Shown here piece by piece: positions 3,683 through 23,550 of a DNA stretch of 64,000 bases. How positions within the stretch are numbered: position 1 is the stretch's first letter; each line of letters starts with the position of its first letter. The position numbers and the translations under genes are program-made. This DNA comes from Cupriavidus sp. WKF15 (GTDB lineage: Bacteria; Pseudomonadota; Gammaproteobacteria; Burkholderiales; Burkholderiaceae): assembly GCF_029278605.1 (NCBI RefSeq), contig NZ_CP119573.1, positions 1,054,001 to 1,118,000 of the forward strand, in the 5' to 3' direction. The notes under the pieces were generated by a model. That model was not told the DNA's origin. It saw nothing but the letters and a program-made list of their open reading frames with translations, and made no database searches.

Positions 3683-3749
3683 CAGGCAGGTGAATGGGAG
3701 CGCGTGATGCCCATCCCTCCTTGCTGCATTGAAGGAGGTTACGACCATG
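3683..3749 (+). promoter_or_regulatory. putative RNA thermometer covering the hsp20 Shine-Dalgarno
   Basis: The ribosome binding site AAGGAGG (3732-3738) is perfectly complementary to CCTCCTT (3716-3722), with a 9-nt loop between them, so the SD is fully paired in the folded leader. The anti-SD strand runs into TTGCT (3721-3725), the short motif typical of ROSE-type thermometers. A second weak hairpin (ATGGG/CCCAT, near 3694-3714) lies just upstream. Position directly before a small heat-shock gene is where such elements occur. The pairing is seen; the thermosensing function is inferred. Confidence 0.6.
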
Positions 3750-4187
3750 AGTGAAGCATTCTTCGGAACCGACTTGTTCAGTGAACTCGATCGCCTGCAA
3801 AGGCAAATGACGTCGCTGTTCGGCGGCTTTCCTTCCAGCATCCGCGCTGGACGCTTCGGCGCATTTCCTGCAATCAACATCGGCGCGACGGACGACTCCA
3901 TCGAGATCGTTGCTTTTGCGCCCGGAGTGAAGCAGGAAAATCTCGAAGTCTCGATCGACAGGGGCTTGCTGACAATCAGCGGCGAACGCCAATCCGTCTG
4001 TCCGGACGACACGTCGGAGGCCCGACGCTACGCACAGGAGCGCTTTGTCGGCACCTTCCGCCGGGTGATCGAGCTTCCTACCGACGTAGATCCCGACAAG
4101 GTGCAAGCGCGCTACGCCAACGGCTGCCTGTCGGTCACCGTGGGCAAACGCGAGGCATCGAAGCCGCGAGCGATCACCGTCCAATAA
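3747..4187 (+). CDS. Hsp20/alpha-crystallin small heat-shock protein (paralogue 1)
   Basis: This 146-aa ATP-independent holdase has an alpha-crystallin domain from about residue 35 to 135. It includes 'FAPGVKQENLEVSIDRGLL' and the family motif 'ANGCLSVTV', and ends in an IxV-type tail ('AITVQ') used for oligomer contacts. The ATG at 3747 is chosen because AAGGAGG lies 8 bases upstream; the frame is open from 3729. It is the first gene of a run of three hsp20 genes and probably the only one under direct leader-RNA control. Paralogue 2 starts 16 bp after its stop. Confidence 0.95.
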   Translation: MSEAFFGTDLFSELDRLQRQMTSLFGGFPSSIRAGRFGAFPAINIGATDDSIEIVAFAPGVKQENLEVSIDRGLLTISGERQSVCPDDTSEARRYAQERFVGTFRRVIELPTDVDPDKVQARYANGCLSVTVGKREASKPRAITVQ

Positions 4188-4203
4188 CCGGAAGGAGACT
4201 GCC

Positions 4204-4620
4204 ATGAACGATTCTTCGCAAGTCGTCGAACGCGATCCGGGCGCCGTGGCGCAACCCAGGGACGACAAGGCCGCACAGGGCACGCGGCCCGTCACGCTAC
4301 TGCCGGCGGTGGACATCGTCGAGGACAGCAGCGGCGTTACGCTTTGGGCCGACCTGCCGGGCGTGACCCGCGACAAGCTGCAAGTCAGCGTCCACGACGG
4401 CAGCCTCCACATCGAGGCGGAAGCCGTCGTGCCGACGCCGACCGGGTTACGTGTGCAGCATGCGGAAATCCGTCAGCCACACTTTGCCCGGGCCTTCGCG
4501 CTGAGTCCGGACCTGGATTCAACGCAAATCGGCGCTCAGTTGCAGGATGGCGTGCTGAAGCTGACCATTCCCCGCCGCGAGGAAGCGCGTCCGCGACGCA
4601 TAACCGTCAACGTAGCGTAG
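4204..4620 (+). CDS. Hsp20/alpha-crystallin small heat-shock protein (paralogue 2)
   Basis: This 138-aa small heat-shock protein has a short hydrophilic N-terminal arm, then the alpha-crystallin domain starting near residue 37 ('DIVEDSSGVTLWADLPGV'), the conserved 'LQDGVLKLTIP' and a C-terminal 'RITVNV' anchor. It starts 16 bp after paralogue 1 with a GGAAGGAGA ribosome binding site, so the two are almost surely co-transcribed. Pairs of divergent Hsp20s in one operon often form mixed oligomers (family knowledge; not shown here). Confidence 0.95.
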   Translation: MNDSSQVVERDPGAVAQPRDDKAAQGTRPVTLLPAVDIVEDSSGVTLWADLPGVTRDKLQVSVHDGSLHIEAEAVVPTPTGLRVQHAEIRQPHFARAFALSPDLDSTQIGAQLQDGVLKLTIPRREEARPRRITVNVA

Positions 4621-4704
4621 GGACTTTCATGACGCGTCATGCGCCATTGCTGCCGCAGCGCATGACGCCTTCGACACTCGATGATCCTCAATCGGAGCCG
4701 CGAC

Positions 4705-5271
4705 ATGAAAACGGAACTCAAGTGGAACCCCTTCAAATTCCTGCGGAAGACAACTGCCGACAAACCGGCCGCCAGTGAAGAGGCGTCCGGCACCGTCCCA
4801 CCACGGCACCGGGTGCCGGAATGGCCGGACGTCTCGCGTTTCTTCTCCGGCGATCCTTGGCGTGCCATGAGCGAATTCCTGCATGAACCTCTCGCCAACT
4901 TCAGCGGCCTGGACCGCTGGTTTGGCGACTTCAGCTCGTCGCGCTTCCAGCCTCGGATCGACGTCGTCGACGACGGCGCGGCACTTCGGATCACTGCCGA
5001 ATTGCCCGGCATCGAACGCGAGGAGGTGCAGATCAGCATCGAGGATGGCGCGCTAGTGCTGAGGGGCGAGAAGAAGCAGGATGTTCAGACGGAGGAAAGC
5101 GGATGCTATCGCCTTGAGCGCGCGTACGGCGCCTTCATGCGTAGCATTCCCTTGCCGGACGGGCTTGACCTGGACAACGTCGAAGCCCGATTTGACCAAG
5201 GCGTTCTGACGCTGCGCTTGCCTAAGAGCGACACGTCATCGTCCTCCGTGCGCAAGATCAACATCCAATGA
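4705..5271 (+). CDS. Hsp20/alpha-crystallin small heat-shock protein (paralogue 3)
   Basis: This 188-aa paralogue has a longer, Trp- and Phe-rich N-terminal arm (~85 residues, including 'WNPFKFLRK') than the other two. The alpha-crystallin domain spans about residues 86-180 ('IDVVDDGAALRITAELPGI', 'DQGVLTLRLPK') and the tail is 'KINIQ'. The frame is open from 4681 but ATG 4705 is preferred because CGGAGC precedes it at a suitable distance. It lies 84 bp after paralogue 2 and 34 bp before a protein of unknown function on the same strand. Confidence 0.93.
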   Translation: MKTELKWNPFKFLRKTTADKPAASEEASGTVPPRHRVPEWPDVSRFFSGDPWRAMSEFLHEPLANFSGLDRWFGDFSSSRFQPRIDVVDDGAALRITAELPGIEREEVQISIEDGALVLRGEKKQDVQTEESGCYRLERAYGAFMRSIPLPDGLDLDNVEARFDQGVLTLRLPKSDTSSSSVRKINIQ

Positions 5272-15241: not shown

Positions 15242-15751
15242 TCAGTCCCCGGCGCGCTCGGGGACCGGTAGCTGTACCCACTCCTTATAGAAGGCCTCGA
15301 TGTCCGGCTCGAAGTCATGGATCACCGGATACCATGGCGTGGGCGCCTCGACGTCGTGCATGGTGCCGCAGGCCGGGCAGTAGTACTCGCGATATACCTG
15401 CCACTGGGTGTCCGGGGCCATCAGCTTGGGGTAGACCTCCGTCATTGCTTCCTCGGTGTCGCGCACGTAGATCGAGGCATGCAGCTTCCAGTTCTCGCGG
15501 TAGTCGCAGAACTCGTGGCCGCAGTCGCACTTGACCACCCACTTCTTGCTCGCGGCCGATTGCACGATAAACATGTGCGGGCCAAGCGGGAGCACGATGC
15601 GGTCCGGGAAGCTCACCTTGGCTTGCAGGGCCGCCAGGTACTGCTCGAAGCGGCTGTCATCCTTGGGCATCGAGAGCATGCGGAAGGTGGTTTCCCAGTC
15701 CAGGGAACCTTCGACGAGGTGGGCAACCTGTTCATTGGTGTAGGCAGACAT
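15242..15751 (-). CDS. acxC: acetone carboxylase, gamma subunit
   Basis: This 169-aa small subunit of the alpha2-beta2-gamma2 acetone carboxylase is recognisable from the zinc-ribbon-like cysteines 'CDCGHEFC' (~residues 75-82) and 'YYCPACGTMHDVEAPTPWYP' (~residues 124-143), and from the family N-terminus 'MSAYTNEQVAHLVEGSLDW'. The complex performs ATP-dependent carboxylation of acetone to acetoacetate. It is the last gene of acxABC, 23 bp after acxB. A GGAGCTGAAC site precedes its ATG. Confidence 0.93.
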   Translation of the reverse strand: MSAYTNEQVAHLVEGSLDWETTFRMLSMPKDDSRFEQYLAALQAKVSFPDRIVLPLGPHMFIVQSAASKKWVVKCDCGHEFCDYRENWKLHASIYVRDTEEAMTEVYPKLMAPDTQWQVYREYYCPACGTMHDVEAPTPWYPVIHDFEPDIEAFYKEWVQLPVPERAGD

Positions 15752-15774: not shown

Positions 15775-18099
15775 TTACTCTTCGACCTGGACGACGGTGG
15801 TGACGTCGGGCAGCAGGGAGAGGTCCATGCGGTGCTTGGCGCCGTAGGACGGCACGCCCAGTTCTTCCTCCGGCAACTGCCAGTCCGCGGGAAGATTCCA
15901 GAATTCCTTGAATTCCCGCGTGAACTTCTCCGACAGTGCGAAGCTGGTGGCAAACATGTGTTGCACCTGCACGGACGCGTGCTTGTTGAGGATGCGTTCG
16001 CGCTCTTCCTTCATCCATTCGCGGGTTGGCAGGGAGCGGGCCAGGCGCTCCTTGCGGATCTCGGCACGGCGGGCCTGGGTCTTGCCTGCATCGACCGTGA
16101 ACACGCCCTTGGCGTCCTGGGTGAAGACGGCGCCATAGACCTTCTGGGCATACTCCGGCAGCAGGAATTTCTGGTTGAGGTCCGCCTCGATGGCTTTCGG
16201 ATCCCGATCGATCGGATCGCCGAAGCCCGGGCCCCCGCGCAGGTAGTTGAGGTACAGGTCGTGGTTGGCGTAGCAGTCCTCGGTGGTGATGCACTGCTTG
16301 TCACGCTTGACCACGGCAGTGGCATCGATGTGGCGCTCGTAATCCGGCTTGCCCGGATCGATGTCGCCGCCCAGAGGCAAGGAATCGCCAATGGCGATGC
16401 GCTTGTCCAGCCCTGTCTTGTGTGCCTCAAAGCGGTAGCCGGTGGCGGAAGGGTAGCCGCCCATCATGCCCCAGTCGCTGTTCATGAACCCGTTGCCCAT
16501 GAAGAACATGGTCCAGTCCTGGGCGTTCCACACCATGCGCAGCGTCTCGAAGCCGCAACCGCCACGGTACTTGCCGTAGCCACCGGAGTTGGCCTTGACG
16601 TTCCGGCCGAGGTAGAGCAGAGGCTCTGCCATCTCCCAGATCTCGATATCGCCCATATCGCCTTCCGGGTTCCAGATGGCGGCGGCGTGGTTGAGGCCGT
16701 CCTTGACAGCGCAGGCGCCCGTGCCGCACGAACTGGCCTCGAAGCTGTTGACCGCGTGGATCTCGCCGTCCTGGTTGATGCCGCCACCCTGCAGCCAGTT
16801 GGAGGTGTTGGCGTTTCCGGCGTTGACCTCTTCCAGATAGCCACGGCTGAAATAGGACTGGGACAGGCCGCGCCACAGCGCCGCCCAGCCGGAGACCAGG
16901 AAGTGCCAGGCGTAGGCGTGGCCGGTGCGGCGGTCATCCGGATTGCACCAGGTGCCCTTTGGCAGGCGAAACTCGGTGGCGAAGTAGGCGCCGTCGTTGA
17001 TGCGCTGTGTGGGCACCAGGGTCTGGCACATCATCACCCAGATTCCGGAAGTGAATGCGACCTGATGGGCGTTGAAGGTGTGCCAGCCCCAGCGGCTCGC
17101 GCCCTCGAAGTCCAGGCGCCACTTGCCGTCCGGCCTGATGGTCATCTCCACCGGCGAGTGCATGATGGAGTCCAGCTTGGCGAAGGCGTTGGAGACCTGC
17201 ACGTCGTCATGCTTGTAAGGCACGTCGACAAAGGAGACCTTGCGGTACTTGCCTGGCAGGGTCATGGCCTTGATGCGGCTCTGCAGTCCGCGGCGGCCTT
17301 CTTCGATGACCTCGAAGGCAAACTTCTCGTAGGCTTCGATGCCGTCGGCGCGGATCACTTCCTCCACCAGCTCGCGGATCATGTGGCAGCCGGCGATGCG
17401 GGTCTTTTCGTCGAGGATCCAGTACTTGGGCGTGCGCACCGAGCGCTGGGACTCGTGCAGCCAGTCACGCAGCGGCTCGTCGTTCACCCCGGTCTTGCGG
17501 CAGGTGATCATATAGCCGTCGCCGAAGCGCTGGGTCTGGCCGGTGGACATCGAGCCCGGCGTCACCGAGCCGGTGTCGATGACGTGCGTGACGCCGCCGA
17601 CCCAGCCGATCAGCCGGCCTTGCCAGAAGATCGGGACGATGGTGGCGATATCGCAGGGGTGGACGTTGCCGATGGCGCAGTCATTGGTCGTGAACATGTC
17701 GCCGGGATTGATGCCGGGGTTGGCTTCCCAGTTGTTCTCGATCATGTACTTGATTGCCGCGCCCATGGTGCCGACGTGGATGATGATCCCGGTCGAGGTC
17801 AGGACGCAGTCGCCGGCGGCGTTGTAAAGCGTGAAACAGAGTTCGCCTTCCTGCTCGACGATGGGGCTGGCGGCGATCTTCTTGGCGGTTTCGCGAGCGT
17901 GTACCAGGCCGCCCCGCAGCTTGGAGAACAGCTTCTCGTAGCCGATCGGGTCGCTGTCCCGGAATTCCAGCTTCCTGAGGCCGTTGTAGTGGCCGGTGGC
18001 CTTGGTGCGGTCAATGATGCCGTCGCGGTACTGCTTGAGCGTCTGGCCGTTCTGCAGCAGGTCGGCGAAGCCGACTTCTTTATTGCTCATCATGTTCAT
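15775..18099 (-). CDS. acxB: acetone carboxylase, alpha subunit (hydantoinase B family)
   Basis: This 774-aa protein of the HyuB/oxoprolinase-B superfamily begins MNMMSNKEVGFADLL. It contains family blocks such as 'GDMFTTNDCAIGNVHPCD' and 'EASSCGTGACAVKDGLN', and a C-terminal acetone-carboxylase-specific region. In the known enzyme this subunit carries the Mn site where acetone and phosphorylated bicarbonate react. ATG 18099 is chosen because AAGGAGA lies 6 bases upstream; the frame runs on to 18273 inside acxA. It starts 11 bp after acxA. Confidence 0.95.
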   Translation of the reverse strand: MNMMSNKEVGFADLLQNGQTLKQYRDGIIDRTKATGHYNGLRKLEFRDSDPIGYEKLFSKLRGGLVHARETAKKIAASPIVEQEGELCFTLYNAAGDCVLTSTGIIIHVGTMGAAIKYMIENNWEANPGINPGDMFTTNDCAIGNVHPCDIATIVPIFWQGRLIGWVGGVTHVIDTGSVTPGSMSTGQTQRFGDGYMITCRKTGVNDEPLRDWLHESQRSVRTPKYWILDEKTRIAGCHMIRELVEEVIRADGIEAYEKFAFEVIEEGRRGLQSRIKAMTLPGKYRKVSFVDVPYKHDDVQVSNAFAKLDSIMHSPVEMTIRPDGKWRLDFEGASRWGWHTFNAHQVAFTSGIWVMMCQTLVPTQRINDGAYFATEFRLPKGTWCNPDDRRTGHAYAWHFLVSGWAALWRGLSQSYFSRGYLEEVNAGNANTSNWLQGGGINQDGEIHAVNSFEASSCGTGACAVKDGLNHAAAIWNPEGDMGDIEIWEMAEPLLYLGRNVKANSGGYGKYRGGCGFETLRMVWNAQDWTMFFMGNGFMNSDWGMMGGYPSATGYRFEAHKTGLDKRIAIGDSLPLGGDIDPGKPDYERHIDATAVVKRDKQCITTEDCYANHDLYLNYLRGGPGFGDPIDRDPKAIEADLNQKFLLPEYAQKVYGAVFTQDAKGVFTVDAGKTQARRAEIRKERLARSLPTREWMKEERERILNKHASVQVQHMFATSFALSEKFTREFKEFWNLPADWQLPEEELGVPSYGAKHRMDLSLLPDVTTVVQVEE

Positions 18100-18110: not shown

Positions 18111-20255
18111 TTACTTCACTTCCTTGAGATGGAACAGGCGGTGCTTGTCGATCGTGGTTGCGAAGCCGTCGGGCACGACGAAGGTCGTGGCGTCGGATTC
18201 GATGATGGCGGGACCCACGATGTGGTTGCCGGCCTTGAGGGCTTCCATCTTCCAGAGCGCGGCATCCACCCACTTCTTGTGGCGGTAGAAGGGACGAGTA
18301 CCGAGATAGGCTTCCTTAGGCGGCGTCGGGCCGGCATCCGGGTCTTCCGGCAGCACCGGCTTCTGGGTCACGACGGTGCCGCGCAGGATGGCGCCGGTGA
18401 TCGAGAAGCCCAGTTCGGGCGAGCGGGCGGAACTCGCATAGACGCGGCCGTAGGTGTTCTCGAAGGCCTCGACGATCTGGTCCCAGTCGGCCGCGGTGGC
18501 GGCGCTGGTCACCGGCGAGACGATCTCGAGGTCATTCAGCTGGCCCATGTACTGCATCTTGTAGCCGGGAATCAGCAGCACGTCCTCGGGCTTGTAGCCG
18601 TTGAGGACAAATTCGTCGATGACCTTGACGGCCAGTTCAGACCAGGCTTCCTGCAGGCTCTTGCAGGCGGCTTCCTTGTCGGTGTCAGGCGCGTGCTGCG
18701 CAACGCCAAGGTCCACCGACTTGTCGTAGCGGTACTCGAAGTCGGCGCAGGCGCAGCCGAAGGCCGAGAAGCCGGCCGCCCAGGCCGGCACGACGACGTC
18801 CTTGAAGCCGACACCCTCGGTGTAACCGTAGGTGTGCACCGGACCGGCGCCGCCGTAGGAGAAGCAGGTGAAGTCCGCCGGGTTGTAGCCCTTGGCACTG
18901 ATGTTGGCGCGCAGGTACTCGGAGAGAGTGAGGTCGAGCAGTTCGATGACGCCGGCGGCGGCATCCTCGACCGACAGGCCGAGCGGGTCGGCGATCTGCG
19001 CCTTGATGTGGTCGCGGGCGCGCTGCACGTCGAGCTTGATGGCACCGCCCAGGAAGTTGTCCGGGTTCAGGTAGCCGAGCACGACATGGCAGTCGGAGAC
19101 GGACACCGTGTCGAGGCCGCTTTCCGGCCAGCAGGTGCCCACGCGGTAGCCGGCGCTGTCGGGGCCGAGCTTGATCGATTTGCTGTAGGGGTCGAGGCGC
19201 ACAAAACTGCCGGCGCCGGCGCCGACCGAGTCCATCGCCACCAGGGGCAGGGACAGCACCAGACGGGCCATGTCGGGATCGGACTTGATGGCGAAATTGC
19301 CCTTGGTGATCAGGGCCACGTCGAAGCTGGTGCCGCCGATGTCGGAGCAGGCAATGTTCTCGTCGCCCAGGTACTCGCCCAGCAGCTTGGAGCCGATGAC
19401 GCCGCCGATGGGGCCGGAAACGATCGTGCGCGCGAGCTCCTTGGCCTTCCAGCTGATGGTGCCGCCGTGCGTGGCCATCACGCGCAGGTCGAATTTGGCG
19501 CCGTGCTTCTTGAACCGGTCGCTCACCTTCTTCAAGGTCTGGCGCGAAGGCTCGGCACCGTAGGCCTCGAGGATGGTGGTATTCATCCTGTGGCTCTCCT
19601 TGCGCGACGGGTAGTAATCCACCGAGGCGAAGACCGGGATATCCGCCTTCAGCTTTTTCAGCTCCTCGCGCACGATGTCACGGGCGCGCTGCTCGCTCGA
19701 TTCGTTCTTGTGGGATTGCAGCAGGCAAATGACGATGGCTTGTGCGTTGGCCTCTACCAGTTCCCGCGTAGCCTGGCGGACTTCTTCCTCACGCAGCGGG
19801 ATCACGACCCGCCCCTGCACGTCGGTTCGCTCAGTGACGCCACGCGTGCGCGAGACGGGAACCAGGGGTTCATCGTAGCGGTGAGTATTAAGGTGGATAC
19901 GGTCCTCCAATGCATAGCCCAGATAGCTCTGCAGGGCGCGGCCCATGGAATGAATCTGCTCGAAACCGCGGTTGCAGATGAGGCCGACAGCGAGGCCCTT
20001 GCGCATGAGGATGCGGTTGAGCATGGCCGTACCGGAATAGACGCAAGTCACCAGTTCGGGATAGACGTCGTCTACGGTCCGATCCCAGTGGGCGAGGGCA
20101 TCTTCGGAAGAGTTGTAGATGGCAAGGGATTCGTCGCCAGGATTGCTCTGCGCCTTGCCTACCACGAAGCGGCCATCGGAGCGCACGAAGAATGTGTCGG
20201 TCATCGTGCCACCGGCATCGATGCCCATCACCTGTACTGTGGACTGCGGTTGCAT
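18111..20255 (-). CDS. acxA: acetone carboxylase, beta subunit (hydantoinase A family)
   Basis: This 714-aa ATP-binding subunit has the HyuA N-terminal phosphate loop 'GIDAGGTMTDTFFV' (~residues 10-23), 'GGTISWKAKELARTIVSGP' in the middle and the sugar-kinase/actin-like block 'DIGGTSFDVALI'. The subunit phosphorylates acetone and bicarbonate with ATP in the known enzyme. ATG 20255 has AGGAGG just upstream and gives the normal start; the frame runs another 88 codons into the promoter. First gene of the acxABC operon behind a sigma-54-type promoter. Confidence 0.95.
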   Translation of the reverse strand: MQPQSTVQVMGIDAGGTMTDTFFVRSDGRFVVGKAQSNPGDESLAIYNSSEDALAHWDRTVDDVYPELVTCVYSGTAMLNRILMRKGLAVGLICNRGFEQIHSMGRALQSYLGYALEDRIHLNTHRYDEPLVPVSRTRGVTERTDVQGRVVIPLREEEVRQATRELVEANAQAIVICLLQSHKNESSEQRARDIVREELKKLKADIPVFASVDYYPSRKESHRMNTTILEAYGAEPSRQTLKKVSDRFKKHGAKFDLRVMATHGGTISWKAKELARTIVSGPIGGVIGSKLLGEYLGDENIACSDIGGTSFDVALITKGNFAIKSDPDMARLVLSLPLVAMDSVGAGAGSFVRLDPYSKSIKLGPDSAGYRVGTCWPESGLDTVSVSDCHVVLGYLNPDNFLGGAIKLDVQRARDHIKAQIADPLGLSVEDAAAGVIELLDLTLSEYLRANISAKGYNPADFTCFSYGGAGPVHTYGYTEGVGFKDVVVPAWAAGFSAFGCACADFEYRYDKSVDLGVAQHAPDTDKEAACKSLQEAWSELAVKVIDEFVLNGYKPEDVLLIPGYKMQYMGQLNDLEIVSPVTSAATAADWDQIVEAFENTYGRVYASSARSPELGFSITGAILRGTVVTQKPVLPEDPDAGPTPPKEAYLGTRPFYRHKKWVDAALWKMEALKAGNHIVGPAIIESDATTFVVPDGFATTIDKHRLFHLKEVK

Positions 20256-20308
20256 ACTGCCTCCTGTCATTAGTGTCGTCATGGTGGGATGTCCCACAAC
20301 CCATCCAT

Positions 20309-20324
20309 GGCAAAGCCTGTGCCA
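20309..20324 (-). promoter_or_regulatory. sigma-54 (-24/-12) promoter of acxABC
   Basis: Read on the minus strand the sequence is TGGCAC-N5-TTGCC, differing from the consensus TGGCAC-N5-TTGCW only in the last base, with the invariant GG and GC at the correct distance. Transcription would start near 20297, about 40 nt before the acxA ATG. The neighbouring acxR encodes a sigma-54 activator, which fits. Confidence 0.8.
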
Positions 20325-20425
20325 GGCGTGGCTGGCACTCGGGAGCAGCCACGCAAGACGATTGAAATCAACGAGTTGCCGGTATTCCTCGGACACTTCG
20401 CTGGTCGCCGGGAGCCTGCTGTCGC

Positions 20426-20472
20426 TGTCCGGATTCCAGACGTCGCGAGCAGCGGTGTCTGGGAATCGGACG
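20426..20472. promoter_or_regulatory. paired upstream activator sites for acxA
   Basis: Two degenerate copies of the TGTCCGG-N3-CCGGACA palindrome are present: TGTCCGG-ATT-CCAGACG (20426-20442) and TGTCTGG-GAA-TCGGACG (20456-20472). Their centres are 30 bp apart, three helical turns. They lie about 140 and 170 bp upstream of the predicted sigma-54 start, the usual distance for enhancer-binding proteins. Confidence 0.7.
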
Positions 20473-20681
20473 TTTTCTGGCCAGCGATCGACGCAACCGT
20501 CGTTTGGAAGTCCAAGCACTGACGGTTGTCCAACGCCCCTGCGTGGACATGCAGGCCTGCCTGCCCGTCACTGCCGCGATGGGCATTGGCTTGCCACTGT
20601 GTCGCGACGCCTGTCGCTTGTAGCGCTGGCACGCGCTATGCACGGCTCTCGTGCGGATAGCAGCGTGACGCGGTGAAGACC

Positions 20682-21221
20682 ATGAAGAATTCAGCGAAGC
20701 CAGTACGACGGATTGTCGAAGCGGATGCCGACACGGACTTGGCGATCGGCGCCCACCTCGTTGCCGATCGGCTTTGGTACACGCATCACGGCGTCTACGC
20801 GGGAGCCGGGAAGGTTGTGCATTACGCGGGTCTGTCGCGGTCACTACGTCGCGGCCCGGTGCACGAAGTCACGCTGGCGGAATTCGCGCATGGGCATCCG
20901 CTCTGGGTCCGGCAAAGTCCCGGCGCCATGTTCGCGGGTGTGGAAGCTGTGCAGCGCGCCTACTCCCGCATCGGCGAGGATCGCTATCGCTTGATTTCGA
21001 ATAACTGTGAACACTTCTGTATGTGGTGCTTGTATGGCGAGAGCCGCAGCGAGCAGATCGACGTATGGAGGTTCTGGGCAAGCGATGTGGTTGCGGCCGG
21101 GTTCAAAGTTGTCAGGCTGCTTTCGATCGCAATCTCGGGAAGTCTGTCCATGCTGCATGCAGTGTCCCGATTCGGCTGCGAGGGCCAGGCATTCGCGAAC
21201 TCAACGCAATCCACTTCCTGA
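20682..21221 (+). CDS. LRAT-domain (NlpC/P60-like acyltransferase fold) protein
   Basis: This protein of about 179 aa has a single LRAT-like domain. The N-terminal 'WYTHHGVYAGAGKVVHYAG' supplies the His pair, and 'NNCEHFCMWCLYG' (~residues 107-119) carries the catalytic Cys of the family (NCEHF). LRAT-fold enzymes move acyl groups or cleave lipid or peptide bonds. A hydrophobic stretch ('VVAAGFKVVRLLSIAISGSL') near the C-terminus could contact the membrane. ATG 20682 or GTG 20673 may start it. It lies between divergent acxA and acxR; a role in acetone metabolism is not evident from the domain. Confidence 0.8.
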   Translation: MKNSAKPVRRIVEADADTDLAIGAHLVADRLWYTHHGVYAGAGKVVHYAGLSRSLRRGPVHEVTLAEFAHGHPLWVRQSPGAMFAGVEAVQRAYSRIGEDRYRLISNNCEHFCMWCLYGESRSEQIDVWRFWASDVVAAGFKVVRLLSIAISGSLSMLHAVSRFGCEGQAFANSTQSTS

Positions 21222-21292
21222 GCCCGCGCGCTGGAGCATCGGACAAGACCCATGGCGAGTCGGCACGGAAGGCCTCTCAACATGGCGCGCGC

Positions 21293-21339
21293 TGTCCGGT
21301 TTCCGGACACCTGAAGCAGCAATGACCGGAAACCGGACA
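21293..21339. promoter_or_regulatory. paired palindromes upstream of acxR
   Basis: A perfect palindrome TGTCCGG-TTT-CCGGACA (21293-21309) and a near-perfect one TGACCGG-AAA-CCGGACA (21323-21339) have centres 30 bp apart. This repeats the arrangement upstream of acxA. They end about 60 bp before the acxR start, so AcxR probably binds them and controls its own gene. Confidence 0.7.
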
Positions 21340-21399
21340 CTTCCCTATTGGCATGCTGCAAAGCACAAATGCTTGATCTAAAAAGAGATTGTTGACTTG

Positions 21400-23550
21400 A
21401 TGATGGCGCGCGGATACGGTTACTCCAGTCAACTGGAGAGCGACCGTCCAATGGCGTTTTCACATTGCGGCACCCTGATTCCCCGAATCGGCGACGAGTC
21501 CGTCGTGGCTTCCGCCTGGGAGCGTTTTGTGCAGCACCAGCCGCTGGAAGTGGCAGGTGTGCGCAGCGTCGTCCTCGCGTCGTGGCAGCGGTGTCGTTCG
21601 GAGGCCGTAGACCCTGCCAGGCACTCCGCACCAGGGGCTGCTGCCGAACGTGTCCGCCAGTTGCAGCGGCAGAACCGGGAGCTCTGCGAATCCGCGCGTC
21701 CGGCACTCGAGAGCCTGCGCGATATCCTGCGCGAATGCGGCACGCTGATCATGCTCTGCGACCCAGGCGGAACCGTACTCCATCTCAATGGCGAGACCAG
21801 GGCCCGCAGCGTTGGCGAGGGGATCAACCTGGCCACCGGTGGCTGCTGGAACGAGGATGTCATCGGCACCAATGCCATCGGCACCGCGATTGCCACCGCC
21901 GCTCCGGTCCAGATCCATGCCGACGAGCATTTCTGTCTGGACGTGAAGCGCTGGACCTGCGCCGCGGCCCCAATTCTTGACCCCTTTAGTCGCACCCTGT
22001 TGGGGGTCGTGGATGTTTCTGGCGTCAAGGAAACCTTCCATGGCCACACCCTGGGCCTGGTAGTGACTGCCGCCAGGCAGATCGAAGGCGAACTCGCCCG
22101 CCGCGATGTTGCTCTACATGAGCGTCTGCTGACCCGCGCCATTGATCATTTCATCCGTTACGCCAGCGACTACGTGGTGCTTGTCGACAGCCGTGGGCGC
22201 ATTGTCCGTACGAATGGAAATGCGCAGGCGGCGCGGGAGCGTTATGAAGTGCGCCTGCCCTCGGAAATCGGCAGCCAGGTGCCAGGACTCAACCTTGCAC
22301 AGTCCGAAATCGATCGGTCCTGCCAACGCCCGGAATGGCTGCGTCCCGAATGGCTGCACTCAGTGAAGGACCATGACGGCGTGCTCGGTACGGTGCTGGT
22401 GATCCCGCTCGGGACGCGCCAGAGTCGAACCGCGATATCGCTGCCCGCGGCCACAGTCACAGCCAGGGCACCCGCGGCAGGAAACGATGCGTTTGGTGAA
22501 ATCATAGGGCGAAGCGAGGTGCTGGAGGCGACCAAGGCACGCGCGCGCCGTATCGCCCCTCTGGATCTTCCGGTACTGATCCTGGGCGAGACCGGCGCAG
22601 GGAAGGAGCTCTTTGCCCGAGCCCTGCATCGGGCAGGCAACCATCCAGACGGTCCGTTCGTTGCCGTCAATTGCGGCGCTTTTACCCGTGAACTGCTGGC
22701 CAGCGAACTCTTTGGCTATTCCGAAGGCGCCTTTACAGGTGCCCGCCGTGGTGGCCTTCCCGGGAAGTTTGAGCAAGCCGACGGGGGCACGCTCTTCCTG
22801 GACGAGGTCGGGGAGCTGCCACTTGATATGCAGCCACACCTGTTGCGCGTGCTGCAGGATGGTGTCGTGGTCCGACTTGGCGATACCCGCGAACGGCGTG
22901 TCGCGGTGCGCATCGTCGCAGCCACCAACCGTGACCTGCAGAAGGAGATCGCTGCCGGGCGCTTCCGCGAAGACTTGTACCACCGCCTCTGCGTGGTCAG
23001 CCTGCCACTGCCGCCGCTGCGCGATCGACCTGGCGATATCGAGGCAATCATCGCGCATTTCAACAGCCAACTCGCGCGCAAGTACGGCTGTGAGCCCAAG
23101 CAGCTTGAACCCGCGGTGCACCAGGCGCTTGTGAGCCATCGTTGGCCGGGCAACATACGTGAATTGCAGAATGTCTTCGAGGTGATGTTTGCGCTTGGCG
23201 AGGGCAACACCATCGATACTTCTCTGCTACCCCCGAACATCGCTCAGACGGCAAAGGAGTCACTTCCCATATCAACCGCGACGCGGATACCCGGCTCGTT
23301 CGGCCGGCTTGAGGAATTGGAGAGACAAGCGATACTTGACGCGATTGCGAATGCCCACGGAAATATGTCGATGGCCGCCCGGACTCTCGGTATTTCGAGG
23401 AGTACGTTGTACGTAAAGCTGGCCACGATTCGGACTGAGCCTGGCACGATTGGTCCCGCGGTGCCCATTTCCTCTCCCGGGGACTCGCCTTTGCGTAAAA
23501 GCGCAATGAATCGACCGGCCGGGAAGCCCCACAAGCCCAACAAGCCATGA
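21400..23550 (+). CDS. acxR: sigma-54-dependent activator of the acetone carboxylase operon (AcoR/AcxR type)
   Basis: The protein (~716 aa) has an N-terminal sensory part with a GAF domain (~residues 75-235, '[10 protein letters not shown]') and a PAS-like segment (~245-330). An AAA+ domain follows with Walker A '[11 protein letters not shown]' (~396), the sigma-54 contact loop 'GAFTGA' (~443) and '[13 protein letters not shown]'. The C-terminal Fis-type HTH is '[20 protein letters not shown]' (~655-675). ATG 21400 is used; 21451, preceded by GGAGAG, is an alternative. Located next to acxA and to matching palindromes, it is the probable activator of acxABC on acetone or a related inducer. Its stop overlaps the next gene by 4 bp. 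Confidence 0.92.

Follow-up and report, generated by a model that had tools for sequence, protein, structure and literature searches.

Bacterial enhancers can act at a distance, as is established for enhancer-binding proteins (bEBPs). At glnA, NtrC dimers have two palindromic sites, separated by about three turns of the helix (approximately 32 bp) and preceding a sigma54 promoter by about 100 bp, and the XylR system combines paired upstream sites with IHF. The acetone carboxylase regulator AcxR resembles NtrC at glnA in that paired palindromes are found some 100 bp ahead of a sigma54 promoter, but its boxes are mostly 29-31 bp apart and different in sequence, and AcxR has a GAF rather than a receiver domain.

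Passages of PMC3469447 describe how the active form of XylR (TOL plasmid, Ps/Pr) represses its own promoter, Pr; they also present XylR as a sigma54 activator whose gene is divergent from the target promoter, an arrangement that AcxR shares. AcxR differs from XylR in its target pathway and in the location of its predicted sites about 50 bp upstream of the -35 element, and the window (the whole 64,000-nucleotide stretch of Cupriavidus DNA analyzed here) has a separate pair on each side. The BmoR/PBMO biosensor, in the parts of PMC8899819 that deal with it, is built on a bEBP that responds to alcohols, with an upstream inverted repeat and a region resembling an IHF site. The BmoR upstream activating sequence is given there as 193 bp upstream of -24/-12, versus 101 bp for AcxR box A1, and the two systems are likened by layout alone.

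For acetone carboxylase itself, passages of PMC2244623 report that sigma54 and AcxR control acxABC in Xanthobacter autotrophicus Py2. In C. metallidurans CH34, a sigma54 promoter was noted in the acxR-acxA intergenic region (passages of PMC2864759), and an acxR deletion phenotype has been published. The CH34 locus (L151) is like the window in having a divergent AcxR ortholog (73.5% identical over the aligned part) and a sigma54 promoter, and its box pair is located 171/200 bp ahead of acxA. It is unlike the window in being compact, with one shared pair and no LRAT gene between acxA and acxR. In the alphaproteobacterial plasmid relatives examined, acxR and acxA have the same direction, whereas they are divergent in the window. 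The acxR-naming literature searched, in the passages available and apart from the primary papers (Sluis 2002, Rosier 2012), gives no AcxR binding site, and we claim no novelty for one. A search with the bare palindrome motif gave nothing on topic by title among the matches listed.

Paired palindromes and promoters in the window

Three minus-strand genes, acxA (18111..20255), acxB (15775..18093) and acxC (15242..15751), encode hydantoinase A and B family subunits and the acetone carboxylase gamma subunit (PF08882, E = 3e-57), as judged by Pfam. On the plus strand, acxR (21451..23550) encodes a protein with GAF, sigma54-interaction AAA+ (Sigma54_activat, E = 4.4e-65) and Fis-type HTH (HTH_8, E = 1.2e-12) domains, and an AAA+ sigma54 activator is thus encoded near the palindromes. 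The start at 21451 is the most likely one because the ATGs at 21400 and 21403 fall within the conserved promoter described below.

Boxes in the window were scored as mismatches against the 17-bp palindrome TGTCCGGNNNCCGGACA (TGTCCGG-N3-CCGGACA), without assignment to a strand. The preliminary description had reported an exact and a near-exact copy in front of acxR and a degenerate pair upstream of the acxA promoter, and both pairs are seen. On the acxR side, box R1 (21293..21309, TGTCCGGTTTCCGGACA) has perfect palindromic arms with no mismatches, and box R2 (21323..21339, TGACCGGAAACCGGACA), 30 bp from R1, has one mismatch. On the acxA side, the acxA-proximal box A1 (20426..20442, TGTCCGGATTCCAGACG) has two mismatches and box A2 (20456..20472, TGTCTGGGAATCGGACG), 30 bp from A1, has three. 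The start-to-start distance is 30 bp in both pairs. R1 and R2 are inverted copies with TTT and AAA at their centers, and R1 (21293) is the sole exact motif match in the 7.38-Mb genome.

By count, single palindromes are not rare: with up to three mismatches the window has 8 sites versus 4.68 expected, a number reached by 12 of 100 shuffles. What exceeds chance is pairing at one spacing. With up to two mismatches there are 35 single sites in the whole genome versus 96 for a reversed-pattern control; the sites are not enriched, and we set this single-site scan aside as uninformative.

The acxABC promoter has a sigma54 -24/-12 element on the minus strand at 20309..20324 (TGGCACAGGCTTTGCC, score 18 of 19), and the acxA-side pair, measured from box A1, precedes its -24 element by 101 bp. 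This enhancer distance is conserved: a sigma54 element precedes acxA in all 37 loci with AcxR orthologs compared below (scores 16.5-19 of 19) and is 98-104 bp from the first box in 35 of them.

The putative acxR promoter is of another kind. A -35-like TTGACT (21392..21397, plus strand) occurs 52 bp past box R2 and is followed, at a spacer of 17, by a -10-like TACGGT (21415..21420, plus strand), which is a poor sigma70 -10. The pattern TTGACT-(16-18)-TACGGT recurs, with no fewer than 10 of its 12 positions matched, in 34 of the 37 loci, 34 loci being anchored; its consensus was derived from these same loci and is sigma70-like by pattern only. From the end of the second box to the acxR -35 the distance is 48-54 bp in 32 of 37 loci, an arrangement that may parallel that of XylR, with activator sites upstream of or over the activator's own sigma70 promoter, if the acxR promoter, sigma70-like by pattern only, is of that kind. 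A promoter and terminator scan of 20240-21460 returned nothing at its thresholds, and the search for a sigma54 promoter directly before acxR gave scattered weak plus-strand matches at no recurrent position.

Between the second box and the acxR promoter is an IHF-like core (21366..21378, minus strand; CAAATGCTTGATC on the plus strand) with one mismatch to the consensus YAANNNNTTGATW, which we used as it is given in the relevant passage of PMC8899819. The core is perfect in 21 of the 37 loci and has at most one mismatch in 32, as compared with shuffle means of 0.02 and 0.65. Just ahead of it, at 21354-21368, is TGCTGCAAAGCACAA, and by eye similar forms are present at many acxR promoters. The IHF-like site, the acxR promoter and the sigma54 promoter of the LRAT gene (see below) had been overlooked in the preliminary description.

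Conservation and specificity of the pairs

Relatives were collected through the PF08882 family in 399 genomes of the order and 398 of the family, with matches in 19 and 46, respectively, and through a contig search for AcxR from which the best 80 of 439 were taken and further stretches fetched. Among these best 80 of 439, the closest AcxR relatives are from Cupriavidus. Requiring an AcxR ortholog with at least 55% identity encoded divergently from acxA gave 45 loci, and 37 remained after removal of 8 near-duplicates; the 37 are related by descent and are thus not 37 independent events.

Conservation in other acx loci was the test that the preliminary description had set for itself, and the claim withstood it. 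Every one of the 37 non-redundant AcxR loci has palindromic boxes on the acxA side that are paired at 29-32 bp and kept together with the activator. The mismatches of the two boxes add up to 2-7, and the hosts range from Cupriavidus and Paraburkholderia to Zoogloea and Dechloromonas. Mean pairwise identity over the 37 loci is 0.78 and 0.88 for the two boxes and 0.33 for the flanks, the box figures being somewhat raised by the selection of boxes for consensus match. The first box, the counterpart of A1, is weak (at least 4 mismatches) in 16 of 37 loci, and its GTCC and GAC are nearly invariant. A Paraburkholderia PGU19 plasmid that was outside motif building has an acxR-side pair at 29 bp with 2+2 mismatches and, on the acxA side, a single box at up to 3 mismatches.

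The spacing varies somewhat between loci: 30 bp holds for both pairs in the window, but exactly 30 bp is clade-specific, and 29 bp is the commonest value across loci. The best acxA-side spacing within 29-32 bp is 29 in 23 loci, 30 in 10, 31 in 3 and 32 in 1. When spacing was left free between 18 and 60 bp, the best pair fell at 29-32 bp in 32 of 37 loci; an equal or better pair at another spacing was found in L077, L081, L083, L086 and L100. When the 330 bp ahead of acxA were searched for pairs at 29-31 bp with a total of up to 7 mismatches, 36 of 37 loci had one, as did 0 of 40 dinucleotide-shuffled sets. Because one perfect box makes pairs cheap, other spacings in the same loci are a fairer control than shuffles. 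With up to 6 mismatches, a 29-bp pair is found in 23 loci and a 30-bp pair in 10, as against 0-3 loci at each of the other spacings from 18 to 60 bp, except 51 bp. This secondary peak at 51 bp (8 of 37 loci, including L086) comes from an additional weak box or half-box, located 51 bp ahead of the strong one.

As controls we used 37 loci that have an acxA relative and lack an AcxR ortholog, with near-duplicates kept and with less than 330 bp upstream in L169 and L176. Apart from one exception (L161), none of the other 36 has a pair at 28-32 bp with up to 7 mismatches. Their best pairs at this spacing have 8-14 mismatches, near the shuffle means of 11.5-13.1; L143, L180 and L189, with 9 mismatches, fall below all 50 of their own shuffles. 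Several controls (e.g., L152, L182, L183) have one similar palindrome before acxA; the single motif therefore also occurs outside the loci with AcxR orthologs and is shared by the sites of other regulators. AcxA is 79-85% identical in 26 of the 36 controls. In this second acx operon clade, without AcxR orthologs, other palindromes are found approximately 206-250 bp upstream of acxA (L156, L157 and L171; in L171, CGACCGGTTTCTGAACGGTCG), which are probably the sites of other activators.

The exception, L161 (G761:C1:1506700-1520537), is from C. necator A5-1, where acxABC is present a second time, here with an AcxA 98% identical to that of the window. No acxR or LRAT gene was found alongside it, yet it has a box pair with 4 mismatches; acxR of this strain adjoins the first copy (L065). 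The pair in L161 is weak proof and may be mere inheritance, because 208 of 222 and 182 of 202 upstream columns are identical between the two copies (90-94%).

A pair profile was built from 47 of 52 pair elements, leaving out the acxR-side pairs of L150 and L093 (unusual spacing) and the acxA-side pairs of L155 (a copy of L162), L083 and L092. In five Cupriavidus genomes, where 150 of 3683-5071 first-look candidates per genome were scored, all strong matches were at acx loci (10 places), and the next best had an E value of 0.05. Four of the 10 places (the second copy in G761, both in G717 and one in G662) were outside the training set, each with a near relative in it. In the genome of the window, the two pairs scored E = 5.5e-9 and 1.4e-8 and the next match 0.33. 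AcxR thus looks like a local, dedicated regulator.

Of the 45 ortholog rows, L088 ends early and the other 44 all keep the stretch LGI[SA]RSTLYVK of the recognition helix unchanged. It is missing from the 7 AcxR paralogs of the same genome that were compared, out of 21 other matches. From the alphaproteobacterial plasmids we took 8 of the 14 acx loci in the rows listed (H36-H49). All 8 have AcxR-like regulators (29-41% identical) with the helix core LGIARSTLY. When the acxR-acxA gap or up to 400 bp upstream of acxR was scanned, TGTCCG-N5-CGGACA was found with 1 mismatch in 4 of 8 and with at most 2 in 5 of 8 (shuffles 0.024 and 0.28). The other 4 of 8 lack a box at up to 1 mismatch in these zones. 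L207, L209 and L210 have no such box there, and in L207 one occurs just within the end of acxR. The distant regulators next to acxA relatives in L143 and L189 have the same helix core, along with TGTCCG...CGGACA boxes. We also considered covariation between helix and box across the acx loci of other regulators and dropped it: judged by eye it was not sharp, since L156 and L157 have another helix and still have CCGG palindromes.

The LRAT-domain gene and the second pair

Between the two pairs in the window is a plus-strand gene (20673..21221) for an LRAT-domain (PLA/AT-like) protein of 182 residues (PF04970, E = 2.1e-22). The nearest solved structures by sequence (PDB) are HRASLS/PLAAT enzymes, and the translation of the gene contains THHGVY and NNCEHF, the His and Asn-Cys motifs, which we take to be catalytic. 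It is preceded by a sigma54 -24/-12 element at 20627..20642 on the plus strand (TGGCACGCGCTATGCA, score 18 of 19). Our search of the literature for LRAT, bacteria and sigma54 in combination found nothing.

The LRAT gene is present in 15 of the 37 loci, in the direction of acxR in 8 and in the opposite direction in 7. In all 15, and thus in both orientations, a sigma54 element occurs 29-31 bp before the start of LRAT homology (shuffle p ≤ 0.02 each); it is 89-182 bp from the acxA-side pair in loci with the first orientation and 74-235 bp from the acxR-side pair in those with the opposite one. All 15 loci have a second, acxR-side pair, whose spacing (searched over 29-42 bp) is 29-31 bp in 13 and 34 and 42 bp in the others. 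The contrast between strong sites at acxR and weaker ones at acxA that had been drawn from the window extends to these loci: the acxR-side pair, which was searched over a wider range of spacings than the acxA-side pair, has fewer mismatches in 14 of 15 two-pair loci and equally many in one.

Among the 22 loci without the LRAT gene we found no independent second pair; in 7, a weak third box combines with a strong one at 6-7 mismatches. A single pair lies near both promoters in 20 of these 22, and in L067 and L071 it is missing beside acxR, being 200 and 298 bp from the best -35. On a tree of AcxR (37 rows), the three LRAT states require 4 changes versus 13.6 in shuffles, and the opposite orientation does not form one clade.

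We consider the LRAT-domain gene a probable third member of the AcxR regulon. A further reading, to which we give about equal weight for and against, is that the gene and a duplicated box pair form a regulatory insert in a compact acxR-acxA divergon. Each pair would then have promoters of its own to serve, and the LRAT gene, whichever way it points, would keep a sigma54 promoter with a pair upstream.

LRAT-domain genes are also frequent elsewhere in the genus, with a match in 43 of 60 genomes. Among 19 LRAT paralog loci that were picked, a sigma54-like element precedes the gene in 10 (shuffle p ≤ 0.035), and in 7 a gene for a sigma54 activator is located no more than 3 kb away. The association of LRAT with enhancer-binding proteins is thus a recurrent one; the loci noted in this respect, besides the gene in the window, are L218, L222, L223, L224, L228, L231, L233, L235, L236 and L237.

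A predicted AcxR enhancer system and its alternatives

The pairs can be classed, from their sequence and setting, as upstream activating sequences of a bEBP, i.e., sigma54 enhancers of a known kind. We think it highly probable that both pairs are AcxR sites, which would act as enhancers for the sigma54 promoter of acxABC and also in the autoregulation of acxR. Taken together, the literature on CH34 and the box data lead us to predict, as very likely, that AcxR binds to the pairs and that acxABC is activated through sigma54. An AcxR dimer would bind each 17-bp palindrome via the Fis-type HTH, and two dimers 29-31 bp apart may nucleate the active AAA+ oligomer. On the acxA side, the pair (20426-20472) would act as the enhancer of the acxABC promoter 101 bp away. 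Given that the LRAT gene has a sigma54 promoter of its own, 154 bp away, this pair probably serves as an enhancer for two divergent sigma54 promoters. Induction by acetone or isopropanol could take place through the GAF domain.

The acxR-side pair (21293-21339), 52 bp upstream of the sigma70-like acxR promoter and with the IHF-like site in between, would serve in autoregulation. We suspect autoregulation because the distance between pair and acxR promoter in LRAT loci is nearly that of the shared pair in compact loci; its sign would most likely be negative feedback, as for XylR at Pr. The preliminary description took the repeated geometry as strong evidence for cooperative binding. Cooperativity of the boxes is something that we infer from geometry only, and the spacings do not in themselves point to strict helical phasing: with 10.5 bp to a helical turn, 29-30 bp makes about 2.8 turns instead of exactly three, and in 2 of 15 cases the acxR-side pair has a spacing of 34 or 42 bp.

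The main rival to autoregulation is that the acxR-side pair is a strong remote AcxR enhancer that serves the sigma54 promoters of acxABC and the LRAT gene over several hundred bp, with acxR being constitutive. Enhancers of bEBPs are known to act at a distance, and this possibility would fit the 7 loci with the LRAT gene in the opposite direction, where the LRAT sigma54 promoter has the acxR-side pair 74-235 bp ahead of it, at a position suited to an enhancer, as well as the occurrence of a second pair in 15 of 15 LRAT loci and of no independent one that we could find in the 22 without. In the window, however, the LRAT gene is reversed relative to those loci, and the acxR-side pair lies downstream of it, yet is stronger than the acxA-side pair. 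Its distance from the acxR -35 in the 15 LRAT loci (48-59 bp) is, moreover, near the 42-54 bp of the shared pair (20 of 22 loci), and on balance we regard a purely remote role as rather unlikely.

That the palindromes are bound by a regulator other than AcxR is much less probable still. Similar lone palindromes do precede acxA in some loci without an AcxR ortholog, but the paired sites track AcxR orthologs (37 of 37 versus 0 of 36), the boxes are at enhancer distance from a sigma54 promoter, and recognition helix and box are conserved together. We reject, as having hardly any chance of being correct, the view that the 47-bp inverted repeat on the acxR side forms an RNA hairpin or a terminator downstream of the LRAT gene. 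It would account for the two 17-mers being inverted copies (TTT/AAA centers) that start 72 bp past the LRAT stop codon, but no terminator-like site was found in the scan of 20240-21460, the Rfam match is sub-threshold and elsewhere (20863-20900), and the same pairs are also found between divergently transcribed genes and in loci whose LRAT gene faces the other way.

The predicted AcxR boxes could aid the building of acetone or isopropanol sensors. The natural variants, with one shared pair, two pairs, the LRAT gene in either orientation, or the acxR-side pair absent, provide a series on how enhancers may be shared between divergent sigma54 and sigma70-like promoters. The analysis gives the regulator of acetone carboxylase a concrete candidate DNA recognition site and a small predicted regulon that comprises acxABC, acxR and, unexpectedly, the LRAT gene. 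If this is true, a phospholipid acyltransferase-like enzyme would be part of the acetone response, perhaps in the protection of the membrane against solvent.
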